33,747 bases of DNA from Myxococcaceae bacterium (lineage in GTDB: Bacteria; Myxococcota; Myxococcia; Myxococcales; Myxococcaceae). The stretch is from contig JAIBBQ010000057.1 of the NCBI GenBank assembly GCA_019694595.1, positions 1-33,747 of the forward strand, written 5' to 3'. A program made the translations under genes and the position numbers. Below the pieces are notes generated by a model. That model was not told the origin of the DNA. It saw only the letters and a list, made by a program, of their open reading frames with translations, and did no database searches. The stretch's first letter is position 1. Each line of letters starts with the position of its first letter. Shown here one piece after another: positions 1,115 to 17,243 of the stretch.

Positions 1115-1741
1115 ATGATGAACACCACCAGCGTCGATGCCTACCTCCGCGACGGCTGCGGCCGCTGCGAGAAGTACCGGACCCCCGCGTGCAAGGTGCA
1201 CCTGTGGGCCAGGCCCCTCGAGGCGCTGCGCGCCCTGGTGCTCGAGAGCGAACTCGTGGAGGAGATGAAATGGGGCTCGCCTTGCTACACGCTCGGCGGG
1301 AAGAACGTGCTCATGATCGCGTCGTTCAAGGAGTACTGCGCGCTGCAGTTCTTCAAGGGCGCCGCGCTGGAAGACCCCGACGGCGTGCTGGAGAGCGCAG
1401 GCCCGAACTCGCAGCACGTGCGCTTCATCAAGTTCCGCTCCGGCCAGGACGTGGCCGCCCGGAAGAAGGCCGCCAAGCGCCTCGTGGCCCAGGCCATCGA
1501 ACTCGAGCGCGCCGGAGGCAAGGTCGCCCCGCGCTCCACGCCCGACGCCGTTCCCGAGGAGCTCGCCCGGCGGCTGGCCGCCCAGCCCGCGCTTCGCCGG
1601 GCCTTCGACGCGCTCACCCCGGGGCGCCGGCGCAGCCACGTGCTCCACGTCTCGGGTGCCAAGCAGGCCGAGACACGCGAACGCCGCGTCGACCGCTGCG
1701 CCGAGGCCATCCTCGCCGGACGCGGCTTCAACGAGCGCTAG
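1115..1741 (+). CDS. DUF1801 / YdeI-OmdA family protein
   Basis: 208 residues starting at the first of two adjacent ATG codons (1115, 1118). Residues about 35-125 resemble DUF1801: EEMKWGSPCYTLGGKNVLMIASFKEY, then LQFFKGAALEDP and RFIKFRSGQDV. The C-terminal part (about 135-208) has the OmdA-like helical tail: P.ELARRLAAQPALRRAFDALTPGRRR followed by a K..ETR..R.D.C...I repeat. The N-terminus adds a short Cys cluster (CGRCEKYRTPAC), which is not typical of the family. Members are cytoplasmic proteins of unclear biochemical function. It overlaps the convergent monooxygenase gene by four bases (CTAG), so no terminator separates the two. Confidence 0.85.
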   Translation: MMNTTSVDAYLRDGCGRCEKYRTPACKVHLWARPLEALRALVLESELVEEMKWGSPCYTLGGKNVLMIASFKEYCALQFFKGAALEDPDGVLESAGPNSQHVRFIKFRSGQDVAARKKAAKRLVAQAIELERAGGKVAPRSTPDAVPEELARRLAAQPALRRAFDALTPGRRRSHVLHVSGAKQAETRERRVDRCAEAILAGRGFNER

Positions 1742-3213
1742 CGTCCGTCCGGAGCGCCGAACCACGTGGTGAGCGCCGCCGGCAGGTGCTCGTCGCCGAG
1801 CGTACCCGCCCACGCGACGTATCCATCGGGGCGGACCAGCACCGCCGCCGGCGCCGCCACCATGCCCACCACCGGCAGCTCCCAGCGTCCTGGCGCCGTC
1901 GCGAGAACGCGGTCCACCCGCTTCCCCCAGGGCGAGAGGTCGAAGTGCCCGGGCCCCTTCAGGTCGAGCAGCAGCGGCCGGGCCCGGTGGAGCAGGGTGA
2001 AGAGCCGGGTGGCCCGACCGCCGACGTCCAGGTCGAGGTCGGGCATGCGGCGGCCGACCAGCGGGTGTCCGTCGCCCAGCGGGTAGCGCAGCTCGAGTCC
2101 CGACATCTTCCCCGCGTAGCGCTTGCGCGGCTCCTCCAGCTGCAGGAGCTCGCCGAAGAGCTCCCGCACTGCCTTGCTCCGCTCGTCGGTCCGGTTGAGC
2201 GCCACCTGCGCCAGCGTGTCGCGCAGCACCCGCACGGCCACCGGGTGGCGCTCCGAGTGGTACGTGTCGAGCAGCGCGGCGCTCGAGGTCCCCTTCACCA
2301 CCTGCCCGAGCTTCCAGCCGAGGTTCACCGCGTCCTGCACGCCGAGGTTCAGGCCCTGGCCGCCGACCGGGTAGTGCACGTGCGCGGCGTCCCCGGCGAG
2401 GAGGACCCGGCCCTCGCGGTAGCGCGTCGCTTGCCGGGCGGCGTCGGTGAAGCGGGAAATCCACACCGGGCTGTGCACGCCGAAGTCCGAGCCGTACAGC
2501 GACACCAGGAGCGCCCGCAGATCCTCGAGCGTCGGAGGCGCCGTCGCGCCGACCTGCGCCTCGGTCACCATCACCCGCACGTGCCGGCCGTCGTCCAGCT
2601 TCGCGAAGCCTCGCTGTCCCCGCGCGTCGTTCTGCATCCCCCACGGCGGCTCCTGCGCGAACTCCACCTCGGCGATGACGTGGCTCACCGTCGGCTCGAA
2701 GCCATCGAACGCGATGCCCGCAGCCTTGCGCACCACGCTGCGGCCGCCGTCGCACCCCACCAGGTACTGCGCCCGCAGCGACCGCCCGTCGGACAGCGCG
2801 ACGCTCACCCCGGCGTCGTCCTGCGCGAAGCCGGTCACCTCGCAGGCGCGGAGCATGCCGACCTGCAGCTCCGCCGCCCACTCCGCGAGGAGCCGCTCGA
2901 TGTGCCGCTGCCAGAGCGCCAGTCCGTAGCCGTGACGGGTGGGGAAGTCGCTCACGTCGAGCGGCGTGCCGGCGAAGCCTGCCACCTGCATCGCCTTGCC
3001 CTCGGCCAGGAAGCGGCCCGCGATGCCACGCTGGTCGAGCACCTCGATGGTGCGTGCGTGCAGCCCGCCGGCGCGGGAGCCGTCGACGTCCTGGGTGGCG
3101 CGCCGCTCGACGACGACCACTTCGACGCCCGAGAGCTTCAGCTCCGCCGCCAGCATCAAGCCCGTGGGCCCCGCGCCGGCGATGACCACCGGGTGCGTCG
3201 TCTCGGAATTCAT
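1738..3213 (-). CDS. FAD-dependent aromatic-type monooxygenase
   Basis: 491 residues of the class A flavoprotein monooxygenase family (PheA/TfdB/PgaE type). These enzymes use NAD(P)H and O2 to hydroxylate aromatic or polyketide-like substrates. The N-terminal Rossmann motif is GAGPTGLMLAAEL (residues about 13-25). The DG motif is YLVGCDGGRSVVRKAAGI and the GD motif is VLLAGDAAHVHYPVGGQGLN, followed by QDAVNLGWKL. The C-terminal 100 residues fit the thioredoxin-like domain of this subfamily. The start is the ATG at 3213. It is transcribed divergently from the NmrA-like gene at 3324, so shared control is possible. The substrate cannot be read from sequence. Confidence 0.9.
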   Translation of the reverse strand: MNSETTHPVVIAGAGPTGLMLAAELKLSGVEVVVVERRATQDVDGSRAGGLHARTIEVLDQRGIAGRFLAEGKAMQVAGFAGTPLDVSDFPTRHGYGLALWQRHIERLLAEWAAELQVGMLRACEVTGFAQDDAGVSVALSDGRSLRAQYLVGCDGGRSVVRKAAGIAFDGFEPTVSHVIAEVEFAQEPPWGMQNDARGQRGFAKLDDGRHVRVMVTEAQVGATAPPTLEDLRALLVSLYGSDFGVHSPVWISRFTDAARQATRYREGRVLLAGDAAHVHYPVGGQGLNLGVQDAVNLGWKLGQVVKGTSSAALLDTYHSERHPVAVRVLRDTLAQVALNRTDERSKAVRELFGELLQLEEPRKRYAGKMSGLELRYPLGDGHPLVGRRMPDLDLDVGGRATRLFTLLHRARPLLLDLKGPGHFDLSPWGKRVDRVLATAPGRWELPVVGMVAAPAAVLVRPDGYVAWAGTLGDEHLPAALTTWFGAPDGR

Positions 3214-7628: not shown

Positions 7629-8459
7629 TTGAAGAAGCTGCTGCTCGCCGTGTGCTGTGCGCTGTCGTTCCCCGCCTTCGCCGACCTGAAGCTCCCGGCG
7701 CCCAGCCCGGGTGCCAAGGTGATGCAGACCGCCGGCCTCACCGACATCACCATCGACTACAGCTCGCCGGCCGTGAAGGGCCGCAAGATCTGGGGCGGCC
7801 TGGTTCCGTACGACCAGGTGTGGCGCGCGGGCGCCAACAAGGCCACCAACATCACCTTCAGCCAGCCGGTGGTCATCGACGGGAAGGACGTGCCCGCTGG
7901 TACGTACGCCTTCTTCACCATTCCCGGGCAGAAGACCTGGACCCTGGTGCTCAACAAGAACGCCGAGCAGTGGGGCGGCTTCAACTACGACCAGTCGACC
8001 GACCTGCTCCGCGTGACCGTCACCCCGCAGGCCATTCCGATGCGCGAGCGCCTCGCGTACGCGGTCACCAACTTCACCCACGACGCCGCCAACATCGACC
8101 TCGAGTGGGAGAAGCTCCGCGTCACGCTGCCGGTGAAGCTCAAGACCGCCGAGCAGTCCGAGAAGAACATCGTGCAGGCCGACGGCACCGCCTGGCAGCC
8201 GATGAACAACGCCGCCCGCTACTACCTGGAGATCAAGGACTGGGCGAAGGGCCTCGCCGCCATCGACAAGTCCATCGCCACCAAGGAGACCTGGCTCAAC
8301 GTGTGGGTGAAGGCGCAGCTCCTCGCCGGCAGCGGCAAGGTGAAGGACGCCTACCCGCTCGCCGAGAAGGCGCAGACGCTCGGCGCCGCCGTGCCCCCGG
8401 CCGACTTCTTCTACGCCGAGGACATCAAGAAGGCGCTCAAGGAGTGGAAGGGCAAGTGA
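7629..8459 (+). CDS. DUF2911 exported protein, first gene of bsh operon
   Basis: 276 residues from a TTG start preceded by a strong GGGAGGG five bases upstream. A signal peptide is evident (MKKLLLAVCCALSFPAFA then D-L-K). The DUF2911 domain covers about 20-165: GLTDITIDYSSPAVKGRKIWGGLVPYDQVWRAGANKAT, VPAGTYAFFTIPG and WTLVLNKN..QWG. The C-terminal 90 residues look helical and TPR-like (NNAARYYLEIKDWAKGLAAID, LAEKAQTLG). DUF2911 has no assigned biochemical role and is common in Bacteroidetes and Myxococcota. Its stop is three bases from the bshC start, so it is almost certainly in the operon. Confidence 0.88.
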   Translation: MKKLLLAVCCALSFPAFADLKLPAPSPGAKVMQTAGLTDITIDYSSPAVKGRKIWGGLVPYDQVWRAGANKATNITFSQPVVIDGKDVPAGTYAFFTIPGQKTWTLVLNKNAEQWGGFNYDQSTDLLRVTVTPQAIPMRERLAYAVTNFTHDAANIDLEWEKLRVTLPVKLKTAEQSEKNIVQADGTAWQPMNNAARYYLEIKDWAKGLAAIDKSIATKETWLNVWVKAQLLAGSGKVKDAYPLAEKAQTLGAAVPPADFFYAEDIKKALKEWKGK

Positions 8460-8462
8460 GCA

Positions 8463-9992
8463 ATGCCCACGCCGTTCTCGCCGTCGTTCCTCGGCGGTGA
8501 GGCGCGCGCGCGGGCTTTCCTGCCCGACGACTTCCGTGACGGGAGTCGTCGGGCGGAGCACGTCCGTCTGGCTGCGGGGCGCGCGGTCTCGCCTCGCACG
8601 CTGGGCGCCCTGAAGGCGCTCTCCGCCCGGCTGCCGGCGAGCCCGGCGCGCGAGGCCCACCTCGAGCGACTCGGCGCTGGACGCGCTGCGGTGGTGGTGA
8701 CCGGTCAGCAGGTGGGGCTCTTCACCGGGCCGCTCTACGCGTTCGCCAAGGCAGCCTCGGCCATCGCCGTGGCGCGCGCTCTCTCGGACGAGACCGGCGT
8801 GCCCTGCGTGCCGGTGTTCTGGCTGCAGAGCGAGGACCACGACTTCCCGGAGATCGACCACTGCGTGGTGCAGCCGCGCAAGGGCGAGCCGGTGCGGCTG
8901 TCGCTCCCCGCACCGCCGGGTGATGGGCGGCGCAGCGTCTCCTGCCTCGCGCTCGGTCCCGAGGTGAGCCAGGCGCTCGATGGGCTCGCCCAGGCCCTCG
9001 ACGGACTTCCCCACCGCGACGAGGTGCTGGCGCTCCTGCGCACCCACTACCGCCCGGGGGCCGGCTGGGTGGACGCCTTCGCCGGCGTGATGGCCGAGGT
9101 GTTCGCCGCCGAAGGGCTGGTCTTCCTGGACCCGCGCGACCCCGCGCTCATGCAGGAAGTCCTCCCGCTCCACCGGCGCTGCTTCGCCGAGCACCAGGCG
9201 CTCAGCCGCGCCCTGCTGGAGCGCGAGGCCGCCCTGGAGGCCGCGGGCTTCGAGGTGCAGGTGCGGGTGCGGCCCGACGTGGCGCTGCCCTTCGTGCACG
9301 CGGCGGGGCGCGACGGCCCGCGCGAGCGCATCGCGCCGCAGGCGCTCCCGGCCGGTGAGGTGTGTTTCTCCAGCTCGGCCCTGCTGCGGCCGCTGGTGCA
9401 GGACACGCTCCTGCCCACCGCCGCCATCGTGGGAGGCCCCGGCGAGCTCAACTACTTCGCGCAGGTGGGGCCGCTGTACGCGCACCTGGGACTGCCGATG
9501 CCCATGGTGCTGCCGCGGGCGCGCTTCCGCGTGCTCGATGCCCGCACCCGCGACGACCTGGCCGCGCTCGGGCGCACCGCCGCCGAGCTCGAGGTGCCAC
9601 GCGCGCAGGCGCTGGCCAGCCTGGGCGGCACGAGCGGCGAGCCCACTCCCGACGCCGTGGAGCGCGAGCTCCTGGCCGCGGTGGAGCCGGTGCTCGCCTC
9701 CTTGCCCAAGGACCCCCGCCTCGGCGACGCGGTGGAGCTCACCCGGGGCACCGTCGCCCGCGCGGCTGCGCGTCTCAAGGCGCGGTGGGCCTTCGCGCGC
9801 GGCGAGCGCGACCAGGTGCTGGCGCAGCGCGTGGGGCGGCTGCAGACCGCGCTCTTTCCGCTCGGTCAGCCACAGGAACGCGTCTACGGCCTGCCGTCGA
9901 TGGCTGCTCGCCATGGCCTGGCGGAATTCAAGGCGATGACCTTCGCCAAGCTCTCGCCGTTCTCCGGCGTTGTGGAGGAACTCCACCCGTGA
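8463..9992 (+). CDS. bshC: Bacillithiol biosynthesis cysteine-adding enzyme BshC
   Basis: 509 residues from ATG 8463, close to the usual length of about 540. BshC is assigned to the last step of bacillithiol synthesis, adding cysteine to GlcN-malate. Family signatures are present in order: VVVTGQQVGLFTGPLYAFAKAASAIAVAR (about 77-105), PVFWLQSEDHDFPEI, ILGGPGE-like IVGGPGELNYFAQVGPLYAHLGLPMPMVLPRARF, and a helical coiled-coil region before the C-terminal end. The N-terminal region is shorter and GC-biased. Its stop overlaps the bshA start (GTGA), so expression is coupled. Confidence 0.93.
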   Translation: MPTPFSPSFLGGEARARAFLPDDFRDGSRRAEHVRLAAGRAVSPRTLGALKALSARLPASPAREAHLERLGAGRAAVVVTGQQVGLFTGPLYAFAKAASAIAVARALSDETGVPCVPVFWLQSEDHDFPEIDHCVVQPRKGEPVRLSLPAPPGDGRRSVSCLALGPEVSQALDGLAQALDGLPHRDEVLALLRTHYRPGAGWVDAFAGVMAEVFAAEGLVFLDPRDPALMQEVLPLHRRCFAEHQALSRALLEREAALEAAGFEVQVRVRPDVALPFVHAAGRDGPRERIAPQALPAGEVCFSSSALLRPLVQDTLLPTAAIVGGPGELNYFAQVGPLYAHLGLPMPMVLPRARFRVLDARTRDDLAALGRTAAELEVPRAQALASLGGTSGEPTPDAVERELLAAVEPVLASLPKDPRLGDAVELTRGTVARAAARLKARWAFARGERDQVLAQRVGRLQTALFPLGQPQERVYGLPSMAARHGLAEFKAMTFAKLSPFSGVVEELHP

Positions 9993-11089
9993 GAGTGGGC
10001 ATCGTCTGCCACGCCAGCTTCGGCGGCAGCGGCGTCATCGCCACCGAGCTCGCGCTCGCGCTGGCCGAGCACGGTCACCAGGTGCACCTCGTCGCCGCCC
10101 ACGAACCGCCGCGCCTGCCGGCCACGCGGCCGGCGGGGCTCACCTTCCACGCCGTCGGCAGCCCGGTGCACCCTCTCTTTCCCCACGGGGAGTTCACCCT
10201 CGCGCTCGCCTCCGCGCTCGCCGAGCTCGGCCCCCGGCTCGACGTGCTGCACGTGCACTACGCGATTCCCCTGGCGACCAGCGCGGTGCTGGCGTGCGAG
10301 CTCGCGGGCCCGGGCGCGCCCAGGCTGGTGACCACCGTGCACGGCACCGACGTGCTCACCATCGGCCAGGAGCGCGCCTTCCGCCCGCTGGTGAAGCAGG
10401 CGCTCGAGCGCAGCGCGCTGGTGACGGCCCCGTCGGCCTGGCTCGCCCAGCAGGCGGTGGCGGGCTTCGCTCTCGCGCGCGCCGTGCAGGTGGTGCCCAA
10501 CTTCGTCGACTCCGGGCGCTTCTGTCCGCCCGAGGCGCGGCCGGCCGGGCTGCCGCGGCTCACCCACAACTCCAACTTCCGTGCGCTCAAGCGCGTGGAA
10601 GACGTGGTGCAGGTGTTCGACCGCGTACGGCGCGTGGTCCCCTGCGAGCTCGAGCTCCTGGGCGACGGGCCGGAGCGGCCCAGGGTCGAGGCGCTGGTAC
10701 GCGCGCTCGGGCTCCGGGCGCAGGTGCACTTCGCGGGGGAGACCTCCGACGTGGCCCCTCATCTCAAGGCGAGCGACGTCTTCCTCCTCCCGAGCGAGGT
10801 CGAGAGCTTCGGCCTCGCCGCCCTGGAAGCGATGAGCTGCGGCGTGCCGGTGGTGGCGAGCGCGGTCGGCGGGGTGAGCGAGGTGGTGCGCGACGGCGTC
10901 ACCGGCTTCCTCCACCCCGTGGGCGACGTCGACGCCATGGCCGCGTCCACCGTGCGGCTCCTGCAGGACCGCGCGCTCCACCGGACCATGTCGCGCGAGG
11001 CCCGCAGCTGGTGTACCGCCCACTGGCAGCGCGCGCCGGTGGTCGCCCGCTGGGAAGCGCTGTACCGCACGCTGCTGGAGACTCCATGA
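9989..11089 (+). CDS. bshA: N-acetyl-alpha-D-glucosaminyl L-malate synthase BshA
   Basis: 366 residues from GTG 9989; family members are about 375. BshA is a GT4 glycosyltransferase that joins GlcNAc from UDP-GlcNAc to L-malate, the first step of bacillithiol synthesis. Signatures specific to BshA are [67 protein letters not shown] and [15 protein letters not shown]. The GT4 donor motif is [22 protein letters not shown]. The order bshC-bshA-PIG-L is operonic: it overlaps bshC by GTGA and the next gene by ATGA. Confidence 0.93.
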
Positions 11090-13503
11090 GCCGTCGCACC
11101 CTCGCCCTGATGAGCTTGCTCACGTCCACGATGGTCTTCGCCGGTTCCGCGCCGCCCCGCCGCGACGGCGCCCAGCTGCTGCAGCAGGTGCGCAAGCTCT
11201 CGGTGCTGGGCAGCGCGCTCTTCGTGGCCGCCCACCCCGACGACGAGAACACCCGCCTCTTGGCCACCCTGGCCAACGAGACGCTGGTGCGCACCACCTA
11301 CCTCGCCTTCACCCGCGGCGAGGGCGGCCAGAACCTCATCGGCCCGGAGCTCGGTCCGCTGCTCGGCGTCATCCGCACCCAGGAGCTGCTGGCCGCCCGC
11401 CGCGTCGACGGCGCCGAGCAGGTGTTCACCCGCGCGCGCGACTTCGGGTTCTCCAAGAGCGTCGACGAGACGCTCGCCATCTGGGACCACGACCGGGTGC
11501 TCGCCGACGCGGTGTACGCGATTCGCGCGCTGCAGCCCGACGTCATCATCACCCGCTTCGCGCTCGAGGGCGGCGACACCCACGGCCACCACACCGCGTC
11601 GGCGCGCCTGGCGCTGGAGGCCTTCAAGGCCGCCGCCGACCCGGCGTTCCACCCCGAGCAGCTGAAGTCGGTGTCCGTCTGGCAGGCGAAGCGCATCGTG
11701 CGCAACGCCTGGGCGCCCGACGGCAAGCCCACCGGCCTTCCGCCCGAGACGCTCACCTGGGACTCGAGCCCCTACAGCCCGCTGCACGGCCTCACCTACG
11801 GCGAGCTCGCCGCCGAGAGCCGCAGCATGCACAAGAGCCAGGGCTTCGGCGCCGCGCCGCTGCACGGTCCCAACCCCGAGTTCTTCGTGCCCCTCGCGGG
11901 CGACGTGGCTCAGAAGACGCTCTTCGACGGCGTCGAGCTCACCTGGAAGCGCGTGCCCGGCGCGGAGAAGGTCGCCGCGCTCCTCGCCAAGGCGGCCCAG
12001 GACTTCAAGGTCGACGCTCCGCACAGCTCGGTGCCCGCCCTGCTGTCCGCGCTCGAGGAGCTGCGCAAGCTGCCGCGGTCCCTCTGGGTGCAGCGCAAGG
12101 AGCAGGAGCTCGTCGAGGTCATCGCCGCCTGCGCCGGGGTGTTCGTGGAGGCAGCGGCTGCGGCGCCCACCACCGTGCCCGGCGCCAAGGTCGAGGTGGT
12201 GACCCAGGCGCTGGTGCGCGCCGGCACCGCGCTCACCTTCTCGCAGGTGCGGGTGGGGGAGGCCCAGGACTCCGGCGCCAAGGCGAAGCTGCTGGTCGAC
12301 GCGCCCGCGCGGCTCACCAGCCCCTTCTTCCTCGAGCAGCCGCCCGCCAAGGGCACCTGGACGCTCGACGACACGCAGCCCTTCAACGCGCCCCAGCTCC
12401 CCGCCGCGCTGGAAGCCGAGTTCACCTTCAAGGCGGGGACGCAGAGCCTGGTGCTCAGCCGCGACGTCGTCTTCAAGTGGGTCGACCCCACCGTGGGCGA
12501 GCGCACCCGTCCACTCGAGGTGCTGCCGCCGGTGGTGGTGAAGCTGTCCGAGCCGCTCCTGGCCTTCACCGACCAGGCGCCGCGCCCGCTGGTGGTGACG
12601 GTGGTGGCCAACGCCGATGCGCAGAGCGGCTCGCTGCCGGTGACGGTGCCCGATGGCTTCACCGTGAGCCCGCCCGCCGTGGCGTGGACGCTGGCGAAGA
12701 AGGGCGACGAGGTGCAGGTGGCGCTCTCGGTCAAGCGCACCACCGCCAAGGCCGTGGGGGAACTCTCCCTCGACGCGCGCACGCTCACCCGCGTCGAGCA
12801 CGCGCACATTCCGATGCAGGTGGTGCTCGCGCCCGCCCGGGTGAAGCTGGTGCCGCTCGAGCTCAAGCGCGGCCGCACGAAGAAGGTCGGCTACATCGTG
12901 GGCGCGGGTGACGACGTGCCCCAGGCGCTGCGTCAGGCCGGGTATGCGGTCACCGTGCTCGGCGACGAGGCGCTCAAGGCCGAGAACCTCGGTGCCTACG
13001 ACGCCATCGTGGTGGGCATCCGCGCGTACAACGTCAACCCCAGGCTCATCGCCGCCTACCCGCGCCTCATGCAGTACGTGAAGGACGGCGGCGTCCTCGT
13101 CGCCCAGTACAACACCAAGAACTGGCTGAGCAGCGTGCCCGCCAAGCTGGGGCCGTATCCGCTCGAGCTGTCGCAGGACCGCGTGACCGACGAGGACGCG
13201 GAGGTCGTCTTCGCGTCGCCGAGGCACCCGGTGCTCTCTTCCCCCAACGCGCTCGGGCCGGCGGACTTCACCGGCTGGGTGCAGGAACGCGGGCTCTACT
13301 TCGCGTCGAAGTTCGACGCCCGGTACGAGACGCCGCTGTCGATGCACGACCCGGGCGAGAAGCCGCTCCAGGGCAGCCTCCTGGTCGCGAAGTCGGGGAA
13401 GGGCCGCTTCGTCTACACGGGCCTCGCCTTCTTCCGGCAGCTCCCCGCCGGCGTGCCCGGCGCGTACCGGCTCTTCGCCAACCTGCTCGACCGTGGAAGC
13501 TGA
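11086..13503 (+). CDS. Large exported PIG-L family deacetylase with C-terminal ThuA-like region
   Basis: 805 residues from ATG 11086. A signal peptide is visible (n-region SRR, hydrophobic [14 protein letters not shown], cleavage near AGSA). The PIG-L (LmbE) zinc site is [11 protein letters not shown], with AHPDDE at 49-54, and the second metal segment is [15 protein letters not shown] at about 160-172. The middle (about 350-600) is beta-rich. The C-terminal 200 residues ([59 protein letters not shown]) look like a ThuA/GATase-type fold. BshB, the GlcNAc-malate deacetylase, is a small cytoplasmic PIG-L protein; this one is three times longer and exported. It therefore probably acts outside the cytoplasm on a related N-acetyl or amide substrate. 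Confidence 0.9.
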
Positions 13504-13615
13504 AGAGGACCGCCCGCCGTTCTTCCGCACCTGGCGCGGCGCCTACGCGCTGGTGCTGGGCGCGCTCGCGGTGGAGGTGGTGCTCTTCACCGTCCTCGCG
13601 AGGCACTTCGCGTGA
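13493..13615 (+). CDS. 40-residue single-span membrane microprotein
   Basis: GTG 13493 to TGA 13615. It overlaps the deacetylase by 11 nt and the symporter start by 4 nt (GTGA). The protein begins with an acidic cytoplasmic segment ([17 protein letters not shown]) followed by one hydrophobic helix ([18 protein letters not shown]) and a basic end. The overlap on both sides and the clean single-span topology support a real gene. It is placed like other small accessory subunits that precede solute transporters (for example DUF4212 proteins). A role in assembling or stabilising the symporter is inferred. Confidence 0.75.
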
Positions 13616-15309
13616 GCCCGCTCGACTGGGCGGTGCTGCTCGGCACGCTCACCGTCATCGTCGGCTACGGCGTGTGGAAGACGCGGGGCGCCGCGCCGCT
13701 CAGCACCTACCTGCGCGGCGGGTCCGACGCCCGCTGGTACACCATCGGCCTCAGCATCATGGCCACCCAGGCCAGCGCCATCACCTTCCTCTCGACGCCG
13801 GGGCAGGGGTTCGACGACGGCCTGGGCTTCGTGCAGTTCTACTTCGGCGTGCCCATCGCGATGGTGGTGCTGAGCGCCACCATCGTGCCCATCTACTACC
13901 GCACGCGGGTGCTCACCGCGTACGAGTACCTCGAGCAGCGCTTCGACCTGAAGACGCGGCAGCTCACCGCGGTCATCTTCCTGCTGCAGCGCGGGCTGGG
14001 CGCGGGCCTCAGCATCTACGCGCCGGCCATCATCCTCTCCACCGTGCTCGGGTGGTCGCTCGCGTGGACCAACGTGCTCATCGGCGCGGTGGTCATCGCC
14101 TACACGGTCTCCGGTGGCACCCGGGCGGTCAACCAGACGCAGCAGCTGCAGATGCTGGTGATGCTCGGCGGCATGGGGCTCGCCTTCGTCTACCTGTTCA
14201 GCACGCTCCCCGACGGCATCACCGCGGGCGACGCGGTCGGGCTCGCCGGCGCCTTCGGCAAGCTCAAGGCCATCGACTTCTCGGCCTCGCTCGAGACCCG
14301 CTACACCTTCTGGTCGGGCATCACCGGCGGCACCTTCGTCGCCCTGGCGTACTTCGGCACCGACCAGTCGCAGGTGCAGCGCTACCTCTCGGGCGAGTCG
14401 CTCCAGCAGAGCCGGCTCGGGCTCCTCTTCAACGGCCTGCTCAAGGTGCCGATGCAGGTGATGATCCTCGGCGTGGGCGTGGTGGTGTTCGTCTTCTTCC
14501 TCTTCAACGCCCCGCCGCTCTTCTTCAACGCGCCCGCCCTGGCCACGGCGCGCGCCGCCGAGCCGGCCGCGGTGGCCGCGCTGGAAGAACGGCACGCCGC
14601 GGTCTTCGCCCGGAAGCGCGCCGCCATCGACGGCTGGGTGACGTCCAGGCACTCGGGCGACGCGGCGGCCGAGGCCCAGGCGACCGCGGCGCTGCGGGCG
14701 CTGGAGCTCGAGGCCAAGCAGGTGCGTACCGACACCAAGGCGCTGGTGGTGAAGGCGGACCCTCGCGCCAACCCCAAGGACGCCGACTACGTCTTCCTCA
14801 CCTTCGTGATGACGCGCTTCCCGCGCGGCCTGGTGGGGCTGTTGCTCGCGGTCATCCTCTGCGCGGCGATGTCCGCCACCGCGAGCGCGCTCAACGCGCT
14901 GGGCACCACCACCGTGGTCGACTTCTACCGGCGCAGCGTCGACCCCAAGCTCGACGAGCAGCGCGGGGTGCGCGTCGCGCGCTGGTTCACCGTGGGGTGG
15001 GGCGCGCTGGCGGTGGGCTTCGCCGTCTTCGCCTCGCAGCTCGACAACCTCATCCAGGCGACCAACATCCTGGGCTCCATCTTCTACGGGCCCATGCTGG
15101 GCGTCTTCCTGGTCGGCTTCTTCCTGCCCAGGGTGCGCGGCACGCCGGTGTTCGCCGCGGCGCTGGTCGCGCAGGCCGTGGTGGTCGCGACCTGGCTCGG
15201 CAGCGACATCGGGTTCCTCTGGTACAACGTCATCGGCTGTGTCGCGGTGGTCGCGGTGGCGCTCGCGCTGTCCGCCGTCCTGGCTCCACCGGCGGCGAAG
15301 ACGACCTAG
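13612..15309 (+). CDS. Sodium:solute symporter (SSS family)
   Basis: 565 residues from GTG 13612, with about 13 predicted membrane helices. Family signatures include GLSIMATQASAITFLSTPGQGFDDGL, YRTRVLTAYEYLEQRFDLKTRQ, IAYTVSGGTRAVNQTQQLQM, FGTDQSQVQRYLSGES and AAMSATASALNALGTTTVVDFY. The last holds the Ser/Thr residues expected at the Na2 site. A charged helical insert of roughly 85 residues (about 305-390) interrupts the helices before that site and is unusual compared with sugar or proline symporters. The substrate is unknown. Its place as last gene of the bsh operon, after an exported deacetylase, suggests uptake of an amino-sugar or malate-containing product. Confidence 0.92.
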   Translation: MSPLDWAVLLGTLTVIVGYGVWKTRGAAPLSTYLRGGSDARWYTIGLSIMATQASAITFLSTPGQGFDDGLGFVQFYFGVPIAMVVLSATIVPIYYRTRVLTAYEYLEQRFDLKTRQLTAVIFLLQRGLGAGLSIYAPAIILSTVLGWSLAWTNVLIGAVVIAYTVSGGTRAVNQTQQLQMLVMLGGMGLAFVYLFSTLPDGITAGDAVGLAGAFGKLKAIDFSASLETRYTFWSGITGGTFVALAYFGTDQSQVQRYLSGESLQQSRLGLLFNGLLKVPMQVMILGVGVVVFVFFLFNAPPLFFNAPALATARAAEPAAVAALEERHAAVFARKRAAIDGWVTSRHSGDAAAEAQATAALRALELEAKQVRTDTKALVVKADPRANPKDADYVFLTFVMTRFPRGLVGLLLAVILCAAMSATASALNALGTTTVVDFYRRSVDPKLDEQRGVRVARWFTVGWGALAVGFAVFASQLDNLIQATNILGSIFYGPMLGVFLVGFFLPRVRGTPVFAAALVAQAVVVATWLGSDIGFLWYNVIGCVAVVAVALALSAVLAPPAAKTT

Positions 15310-15878: not shown

Positions 15879-17243
15879 TCAGCTGGCCGGGGTGGCCCGC
15901 TTCGTGAGCACCGTACTCCCGCCACGCACCACCGAGGCGACAGCTCCGACCATCAGCAAGACCGCCAGGTCGGGGTTGAAGCGGAGCATCGCGACGAGTG
16001 GAATGTGCGCCAACCAGGGGACCCCGACCAGCAACGCCACCGCGAGCGCGCCGTCGAACGCGGCGTGCCATCGCGGGCGAGACTGACCACGTCGCCAGGC
16101 CCAGGCGAACCTGGCGAGCGAGACGAGGCCGATGCCGAGGAACAGCCACTTCATCGCCGGCTGATTGCGATACCCGAACCAGGTGCTGGTCTTCGGTGAC
16201 TTCCCGAGCACCAGCTGCGCCACGCCGGGAACGATGTCGCGCACCGCGAGCCGTGTGGCTGGACTCGCCAGGGCGTTCACGTTGGCGAGCGCCGCCACCG
16301 CGAAACCGGACCGGGGAAAGAGCGCCATCGTCGAGGTGAACTCACCCGTCTGCCCGCTGTGCACGATCATCGGCTGGCCGTCGAGCTGTCGCACCGTCCA
16401 CCCCATGGCGTAGCTGCTGTCTTCGTCGGTGCCGGCACGATGCAGAGTCCCGAACCCGGCTTCGCTCAAGACCGTCGGCTCGAGGCTTCGGCCTTCGGTG
16501 AGGTGGAGTCGCAGCACCGCGCCCATCCCCTCGGCGGTGGCGAACATCCCACCGGAAGGTGTGTTGGCCTCGGTCCAGTCGTCGGAGTCGCGCCGCGCCT
16601 GGTACACCCCGAACCAGTCCTGGTACCCGCGGGGCACCTCGGCCAGCTCCGCGCGCACCCAGACCTGATCGAGCCCCATCGGACCGAGGACCTCGTCGCG
16701 CATGAATCGCGCGTACGGCTTGCCGGTGACCCGTTCGATGATCAACCCGAGCGCGTCGTAGTTCGCATTCGAATACTGGAAGGCCGTGCCAGGGGCCCAG
16801 AGGAGCGGTTCCCCGTGCAGCGCCCGGACCCTGCCTTCCAGCGAGCCGCCGTCGAACCAGAACCCGGCTGCTCCGGGAATTCCGCTCGTGTGATGCAGCA
16901 GGTGGCGAATGGAGATTCGCGGGTCGAGCTCCGGCAGAAGCGCGGCCGCCGGCTGGTCGAGCGACAGCTTCCCGCGCTCCACCAGAATCATCACGCCGAG
17001 CGCGGTGAAGCTCTTGGACAGGGAACCGATGGCGAACACCGAGCGAGGGCCGACCTCGGCGCCCTCGGCGTCGGTGCCCAGCGTCACCGAGGACACTTCC
17101 CCTGCCGCGGTGATGACCACCACCGCCAGGCCCGGGAGCCGCGCTCGGGAGCGGACCTCGGAGAGCCACGCCTGCAACTCGGGGGTCGCCGCCGGGCCCG
17201 AGGTGGCCGAGAGCACCGCCGCCAGGATCAACGAGCTGACCAT
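15879..17243 (-). CDS. Serine hydrolase, class C beta-lactamase family, with C-terminal membrane helices
   Basis: 454 residues from ATG 17243. A short hydrophobic N-terminus acts as signal peptide (VSSLILAAVLSATSGPAA). Catalytic motifs of the beta-lactamase/DD-peptidase fold are SLSK (S74-K77) in VFAIGSLSKSFTALG, YSN at 157-159 in FQYSNANYDALG, and HSGQTGEF near residue 320. HLLHHTSGIPG is typical of PF00144. After about residue 370 there are three likely membrane helices (KWLFLGIGLVSLARFAW, FDGALAVALLVGVPWL, AVLLMVGAVASVV). The hydrolase is thus tethered on the outer face of a membrane. Substrates may be peptidoglycan peptides, D-amino-acid peptides or esters. True beta-lactam resistance is not implied. 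Confidence 0.9.
   Translation of the reverse strand: MVSSLILAAVLSATSGPAATPELQAWLSEVRSRARLPGLAVVVITAAGEVSSVTLGTDAEGAEVGPRSVFAIGSLSKSFTALGVMILVERGKLSLDQPAAALLPELDPRISIRHLLHHTSGIPGAAGFWFDGGSLEGRVRALHGEPLLWAPGTAFQYSNANYDALGLIIERVTGKPYARFMRDEVLGPMGLDQVWVRAELAEVPRGYQDWFGVYQARRDSDDWTEANTPSGGMFATAEGMGAVLRLHLTEGRSLEPTVLSEAGFGTLHRAGTDEDSSYAMGWTVRQLDGQPMIVHSGQTGEFTSTMALFPRSGFAVAALANVNALASPATRLAVRDIVPGVAQLVLGKSPKTSTWFGYRNQPAMKWLFLGIGLVSLARFAWAWRRGQSRPRWHAAFDGALAVALLVGVPWLAHIPLVAMLRFNPDLAVLLMVGAVASVVRGGSTVLTKRATPAS

Follow-up and report, generated by a model that had tools for sequence, protein, structure and literature searches.

The window analysed here is a 33,747-nucleotide stretch of contig JAIBBQ010000057.1 from a Myxococcaceae bacterium. 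We identified a collinear run of six genes on its forward strand (7629-15309), encoding a DUF2911 protein, BshC, BshA, a long PIG-L hydrolase, a 40-aa protein, and an SSS symporter. The genes, together with the domains and loop discussed below, are as follows:

7629-8459, +: DUF2911 protein, 276 aa, with a signal-peptide-like N-terminus; TTG start; PF11138, 186.9 bits
8463-9992, +: bshC, cysteine-adding enzyme of bacillithiol synthesis; TIGR03998, 360 bits (cut-off 265.8)
9989-11089, +: bshA, GlcNAc-malate synthase; GTG start; TIGR03999, 394 bits (cut-off 273.7)
11086-13503, +: long PIG-L hydrolase, 805 aa, export predicted; ATG start; PF02585, 56.9 bits
11200-11943, +: PIG-L catalytic domain, residues 39-286, with HPDDEN (50-55), R97, and HGxH (166-169), from the predicted model and conservation
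12874-13500, +: C-terminal GATase1/ThuA-like domain of the PIG-L protein, residues 597-805, from a fold match of the predicted model
13493-13615, +: single-helix membrane microprotein, 40 aa, conserved family; GTG start; 31 sequences compared
13612-15309, +: SSS-family (SLC5-like) symporter, 565 aa; GTG start; TIGR00813 and PF00474
14563-14757, +: helical hairpin (residues 318-382) in the symporter loop that joins core helices 7 and 8, from predicted helices

In order, the genes are separated by 3 nt at the first junction and overlap by 4, 4, 11, and 4 nt at the others, and the coordinates re-read from the sequence agree with the tight spacing described in the original prediction. From this spacing, the run from DUF2911 to the symporter is likely one transcription unit; a scan for promoters and terminators gave no informative signal. 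The curated cut-offs of PF11138, TIGR03998, TIGR03999, PF02585, TIGR00813, and PF00474 were all exceeded, and those passed by BshA and BshC are NCBIfam equivalog cut-offs for bacillithiol (BSH) biosynthesis. Elsewhere in the window, the reverse strand encodes a beta-lactamase-family protein (15879-17243), a zinc metallopeptidase (PF04228; 4955-6334), and an FAD aromatic hydroxylase (1738-3213), which have no evident link to BSH.

The collinear bshC-bshA-PIG-L-SSS form was found in the source window and in G012, a genome of another family. In the usual Myxococcaceae layout, the symporter, microprotein, and PIG-L genes lie on one strand, divergent from bshC-bshB1-bshA, and in Bacteroidota the PIG-L-microprotein-symporter set is mostly apart from bshA and bshC. 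The survey of gene order proposed along with the original prediction thus found that the six-gene order is not kept across Myxococcaceae or Bacteroidota, and these two arrangements rule out a conserved six-gene operon.

Co-occurrence with bacillithiol genes

In a sample of 97 genomes from Myxococcota, an identical set of 29 contained BshC, the long PIG-L, and the symporter subfamily, all of which the other 68 lacked. The microprotein was found in 28 of the 29 BshC-positive genomes, with G005 as the sole exception, and likewise in none of the 68 others. This co-occurrence covers three families, with several presences and absences inside one genus. The module genes are physically linked in Myxococcota, so a joint gain or loss amounts to one event and the coincidence counts as few events.

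A scan of genome contigs detected long PIG-L proteins in Bacteroidota, Ignavibacteria, Acidobacteriota, Eisenbacteria, and Myxococcota. Among 75 loci with 2.5 kb or more of sequence downstream of the PIG-L gene, 51 had a codirectional symporter gene there. BshC was identified in 46 of 48 PIG-L genomes of several phyla, scoring over the cut-off in 43. Acidobacteriota provided the best independent test, because the module genes and bshA/bshC are mostly unlinked in this phylum. Of its 119 genomes, 60 encoded the long PIG-L and 58 of these had BshC, as compared with 20 of the 59 genomes without the long PIG-L (Fisher p ~4e-14, phylogeny ignored; the positive set was drawn by hand, with three weak matches left out). 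A stricter BshC threshold gave 54/60 versus 14/59. We dropped the Bacteroidota co-occurrence as uninformative, since BshC is nearly universal there (147 of 148 genomes; long PIG-L in roughly a third). BSH-positive genomes devoid of the module are common, accounting for 20/78 in Acidobacteriota and most of Bacteroidota.

These comparisons show that the PIG-L, microprotein, and symporter genes constitute a conserved, predicted envelope module tied to bacillithiol, and the tie is very probably functional. The association of BSH synthesis with an exported PIG-L protein and a symporter, which had been predicted from the window, is therefore borne out by the 29/29 versus 0/68 distribution in Myxococcota, and holds in Acidobacteriota.

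We also observed very divergent BshC-like matches in eight Acidobacteriota genomes (G316, G339, G350, G360, G369, G378, G386, and G395), in frames of ~410-640 aa. They scored 31-49 bits per piece, far below the BshC cut-off, and some of these genomes also encode a long PIG-L.

Predicted structures of the module proteins

The long PIG-L protein (805 aa) is ~3.5 times the size of BshB1 (a 226-position model), as originally estimated. Its N-terminus resembles a signal peptide, and a hydropathy heuristic (not SignalP) detected a hydrophobic N-terminal stretch in 50/50 long PIG-L homologues from other genomes. Judged from these N-termini, the hydrolase is probably exported. The predicted model was confident (pLDDT 87.5). 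Residues 39-286 matched the folds of MshB (4ewl, Z 21.7) and BshB (6ull, Z 18.4), as well as LnmX and chitobiose deacetylases, and the 56.9-bit PF02585 match and the His-Asp-His zinc site place the protein in the PIG-L/LmbE-like superfamily. A PDB sequence search with the single protein returned nothing, and when the PIG-L profile was used, the only matches were weak ones to LnmX and MshB. Residues 597-805 matched 2gk3 (Z 17.4) and 3rht (Z 16.5). The only cysteine of the protein is residue 349. Lacking a cysteine, the GATase1-like domain is unlikely to be a catalyst of the usual GATase kind and probably has a structural or binding role.

Across 40 homologues from several phyla, the zinc ligands H50, D53, and H169, the base D52, and R97 were invariant, while the x position of HGxH (168) was occupied by His, Asn, or Gln. 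Compared with the residue roles listed in PMC4101496, the long PIG-L keeps the zinc ligands, the base, and the equivalent of BshB Arg53. The position of Arg109, located by motif alignment, is occupied by Gly or Thr, and that of Asp112 by His, Asn, or Gln. The best profile match was to Mca (44 bits, cut-off 277), followed by MshB (32 bits, cut-off 224), and BshB2 scored 25 bits (cut-off 195); BshB1 was not among the matches listed. Judged from its sequence, the active site is nearer to MshB/Mca than to BshB, yet distinct from both.

The long PIG-L therefore shares the PIG-L fold, the zinc-site residues, and R97 with MshB and the Mca/Bca conjugate amidases, but it is far larger, apparently exported, extended by beta-rich and GATase1-like domains, and far below the Mca and MshB equivalog cut-offs. 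It has HGxH where BshB, MshB, and Mca have HPDH. With BshB1/BshB2 it shares the fold and the genomic tie to bshA/bshC, whereas BshB1 is encoded by a small gene of its own, found alongside the long PIG-L in 25 of the 29 Myxococcota genomes.

The symporter scored 216 bits against TIGR00813 (cut-off 184). Its model was closest to SiaT (5nva; Z 42.1, rmsd 2.3 over 464 residues), followed by SMCT1, NIS, and SGLT2, and it shares the fold of SiaT and other SSS/SLC5 symporters over nearly its whole length. Unlike them, it carries a ~65-residue hairpin in the outer loop that joins core helices 7 and 8, a feature not described in the original prediction. The two predicted helices (318-348 and 351-382; pLDDT ~90-95) are absent from SiaT in the alignment. 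The outer loop comprises 90-134 residues in 51 homologues, mostly 99, as compared with ~12 in SiaT. The Na2 site also appears to differ in part. The TM1 segment is strongly conserved, while TM8 presents Ser421, Ala424, and Ser425 at the positions that we take to be Ser342, Ser345, and Ser346 in SiaT, so that one of the three positions is Ala and the site seems only partly kept. In PutP, the corresponding loop that joins core helices 7 and 8 lies on the extracellular side and contributes to closure of the outer pathway (PMC7918813).

The microprotein contains a PPxxxSWxxxY motif, in which W14 and Y18 are invariant in 31 sequences. In all five phyla, its gene lies upstream of the symporter gene in most loci, and the two typically overlap by 4 nt. 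Differences by codon position among 12 Myxococcaceae (479/229/587) are concentrated at positions 1 and 3. Its recurrence in this position across five phyla and this codon-position bias rule out a chance small ORF. Pfam and NCBIfam scans gave only chance-level matches, and no family in them covers the protein; standard family libraries thus miss a conserved microprotein that the module reveals, and the original prediction had not recognized it as a gene family. The gene remains coupled to the start of the symporter gene even where ORFs intervene after the PIG-L gene, and this coupling suggests that the product is an accessory subunit of the symporter. A comparable arrangement is that of MAP17, the single-helix subunit of human SGLT2 (PMC10803289). 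Both are small single-helix proteins accompanying an SSS/SLC5 transporter, with a putative complex in the present case; by sequence, the comparison gave only a chance-level Pfam match (MAP17, PF15807; one of the 31 members, E 0.099).

We further observed a small hydrophobic ORF of ~55-66 aa in Mucilaginibacter, Chitinophaga, and their relatives, located between the PIG-L and microprotein genes (loci L110, L119, L125, L134, L145, and L174; also L109, L118, and L161).

Possible roles in bacillithiol metabolism

The source genome (99% complete) encodes three PIG-L proteins, and the statement that the exported one is the only PIG-L protein present accordingly applies to the window but not to the genome. 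Of the additional two, L001 is lipoprotein-like and L002 has no evident signal peptide. All three fall below the cut-offs of BshB1 and BshB2 (TIGR04001, 182.5; TIGR04000, 195.25; best 54 bits), and none reaches those of Mca or MshB. The search for a separate bshB, proposed with the original prediction, therefore gave none over the cut-off in the source genome, while in 25 of the 29 module-bearing Myxococcota genomes BshB1 directly follows bshC. The genomes with bshA and bshC and without a BshB1 family member are the source genome (G000), G089, G005, and G012. The BshB step in the source genome may be carried out by an enzyme outside the BshB1 and BshB2 families.

One possible assignment is that the exported PIG-L is itself the working BshB here, in which case GlcNAc-Mal would be sent out of the cytoplasm for deacetylation and then brought back by the symporter for use by BshC. 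The lack of a BshB1- or BshB2-level protein in the source genome, the position of the long PIG-L gene directly after bshA in the window, and the module-bearing, BshB1-less G089, G005, and G012 are in line with this, the long exported PIG-L being the only PIG-L protein found in G012. However, the completeness of G012 is only 93%, two of the three sampled relatives without BshB1 retain one other, possibly cytoplasmic, PIG-L protein, the source genome has its two others, the long PIG-L lacks the Arg109 equivalent, and exporting and re-importing an intermediate would be costly. Because BshB1 coexists with it in 25/29 Myxococcota genomes, the exported PIG-L is not a general substitute for BshB; this coexistence rules out such a replacement for most genomes, with the four BshB1-less ones as the exceptions, and overall we consider a BshB function improbable. 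The same coexistence argues for a role of the PIG-L after BSH synthesis. The hydrolase and symporter could instead be a general pair for scavenging environmental N-acetylated sugars or glycoconjugates, with the tie to BSH arising from shared ancestry, ecology, or the supply of sugar and cysteine rather than from BSH being the substrate. The diacetylchitobiose deacetylases among the related folds would fit, as would the substrates of the nearest symporter structures, which span sialic acid, monocarboxylates, iodide, and vitamins, and the placement of the module away from bshA/bshC in Bacteroidota and most Acidobacteriota. Weighing against it are the coincidence in the same 29 Myxococcota genomes and the 58/60 association in Acidobacteriota, a phylum with mostly unlinked genes, and we regard it as unlikely, although the least so of these alternatives. 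In a further variant, the module would handle a BSH-derived product, such as a periplasmic thiol/perthiol carrier or a cysteine conjugate, and import the cysteine or mercapturate part rather than glucosaminyl-malate (GlcN-Mal). The perthiol of the low-molecular-weight thiol GASH has been suggested for sulfur transfer to the periplasm in purple sulfur bacteria (PMC6336425), and relatives of the symporter carry several kinds of carboxylates. No sequence feature points to this variant specifically, and we give it as little credence as the BshB assignment.

Our tentatively preferred reading, to which we assign somewhat less than an even chance, is salvage of BSH: an exported Mca-like amidase would cleave BSH or its conjugates, and the symporter would retrieve glucosaminyl-malate. 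In this cycle, the PIG-L protein would be a zinc amidase of the MshB/Mca type that cuts the cysteinyl-glucosamine amide. It would act on BSH, BSH disulfide, or BSH S-conjugates that reach the periplasm by excretion or leakage, and would release GlcN-Mal together with either cysteine or a cysteine conjugate. Assisted by the microprotein as its putative accessory subunit, the symporter would import GlcN-Mal or another product, and BshC would re-add cysteine to the imported GlcN-Mal. The release of cysteine from BSH requires dedicated amidases, and S-conjugates may be excreted without prior cleavage (PMC6336425). The closest structural relative of the symporter, SiaT, has an acidic amino-sugar substrate, and this fits GlcN-Mal import. 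Against salvage, the predicted active site differs from those of BshB, MshB, and Mca in the HGxH motif and the Gly/Thr at the Arg109 position. Further points against it are the many BSH-positive genomes devoid of the module and the Ala at one TM8 position of the symporter's Na2 site. The proposed extracytoplasmic breakdown of a thiol followed by re-uptake resembles the part played by gamma-glutamyl transpeptidase in glutathione turnover, although that enzyme is unrelated to PIG-L and the role here is inferred.

Among low-molecular-weight thiols, BSH and its derivatives are reported to be the most widespread (PMC6282198). Among the papers searched, none described BSH turnover outside the cytoplasm or a BSH transporter. 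The occurrence of BSH genes, in the source genome and in other BSH-making phyla, together with those for an apparently exported zinc hydrolase, an importer of the sugar-acid type, and a hitherto unnamed membrane protein of 40 residues suggests that some bacteria may break down BSH or its conjugates outside the cytoplasm and retake the pieces. A slightly more doubtful extension of the salvage reading is a diderm extracytoplasmic cycle, in which an exported multi-domain amidase and a dedicated symporter with a single-helix subunit and an outer-loop hairpin would return GlcN-Mal to BshC, and the microprotein would represent an undescribed class of bacterial SSS subunits. In Bacteroidota and Myxococcota, phyla with some genetically tractable members, the module provides specific candidate genes.

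A DUF2911 gene, like that at the start of the run, was also present in 29 of the 65 PIG-L loci from several phyla that have 6 kb or more of downstream sequence, as compared with ~1% expected by a rough estimate that assumes three copies per genome.
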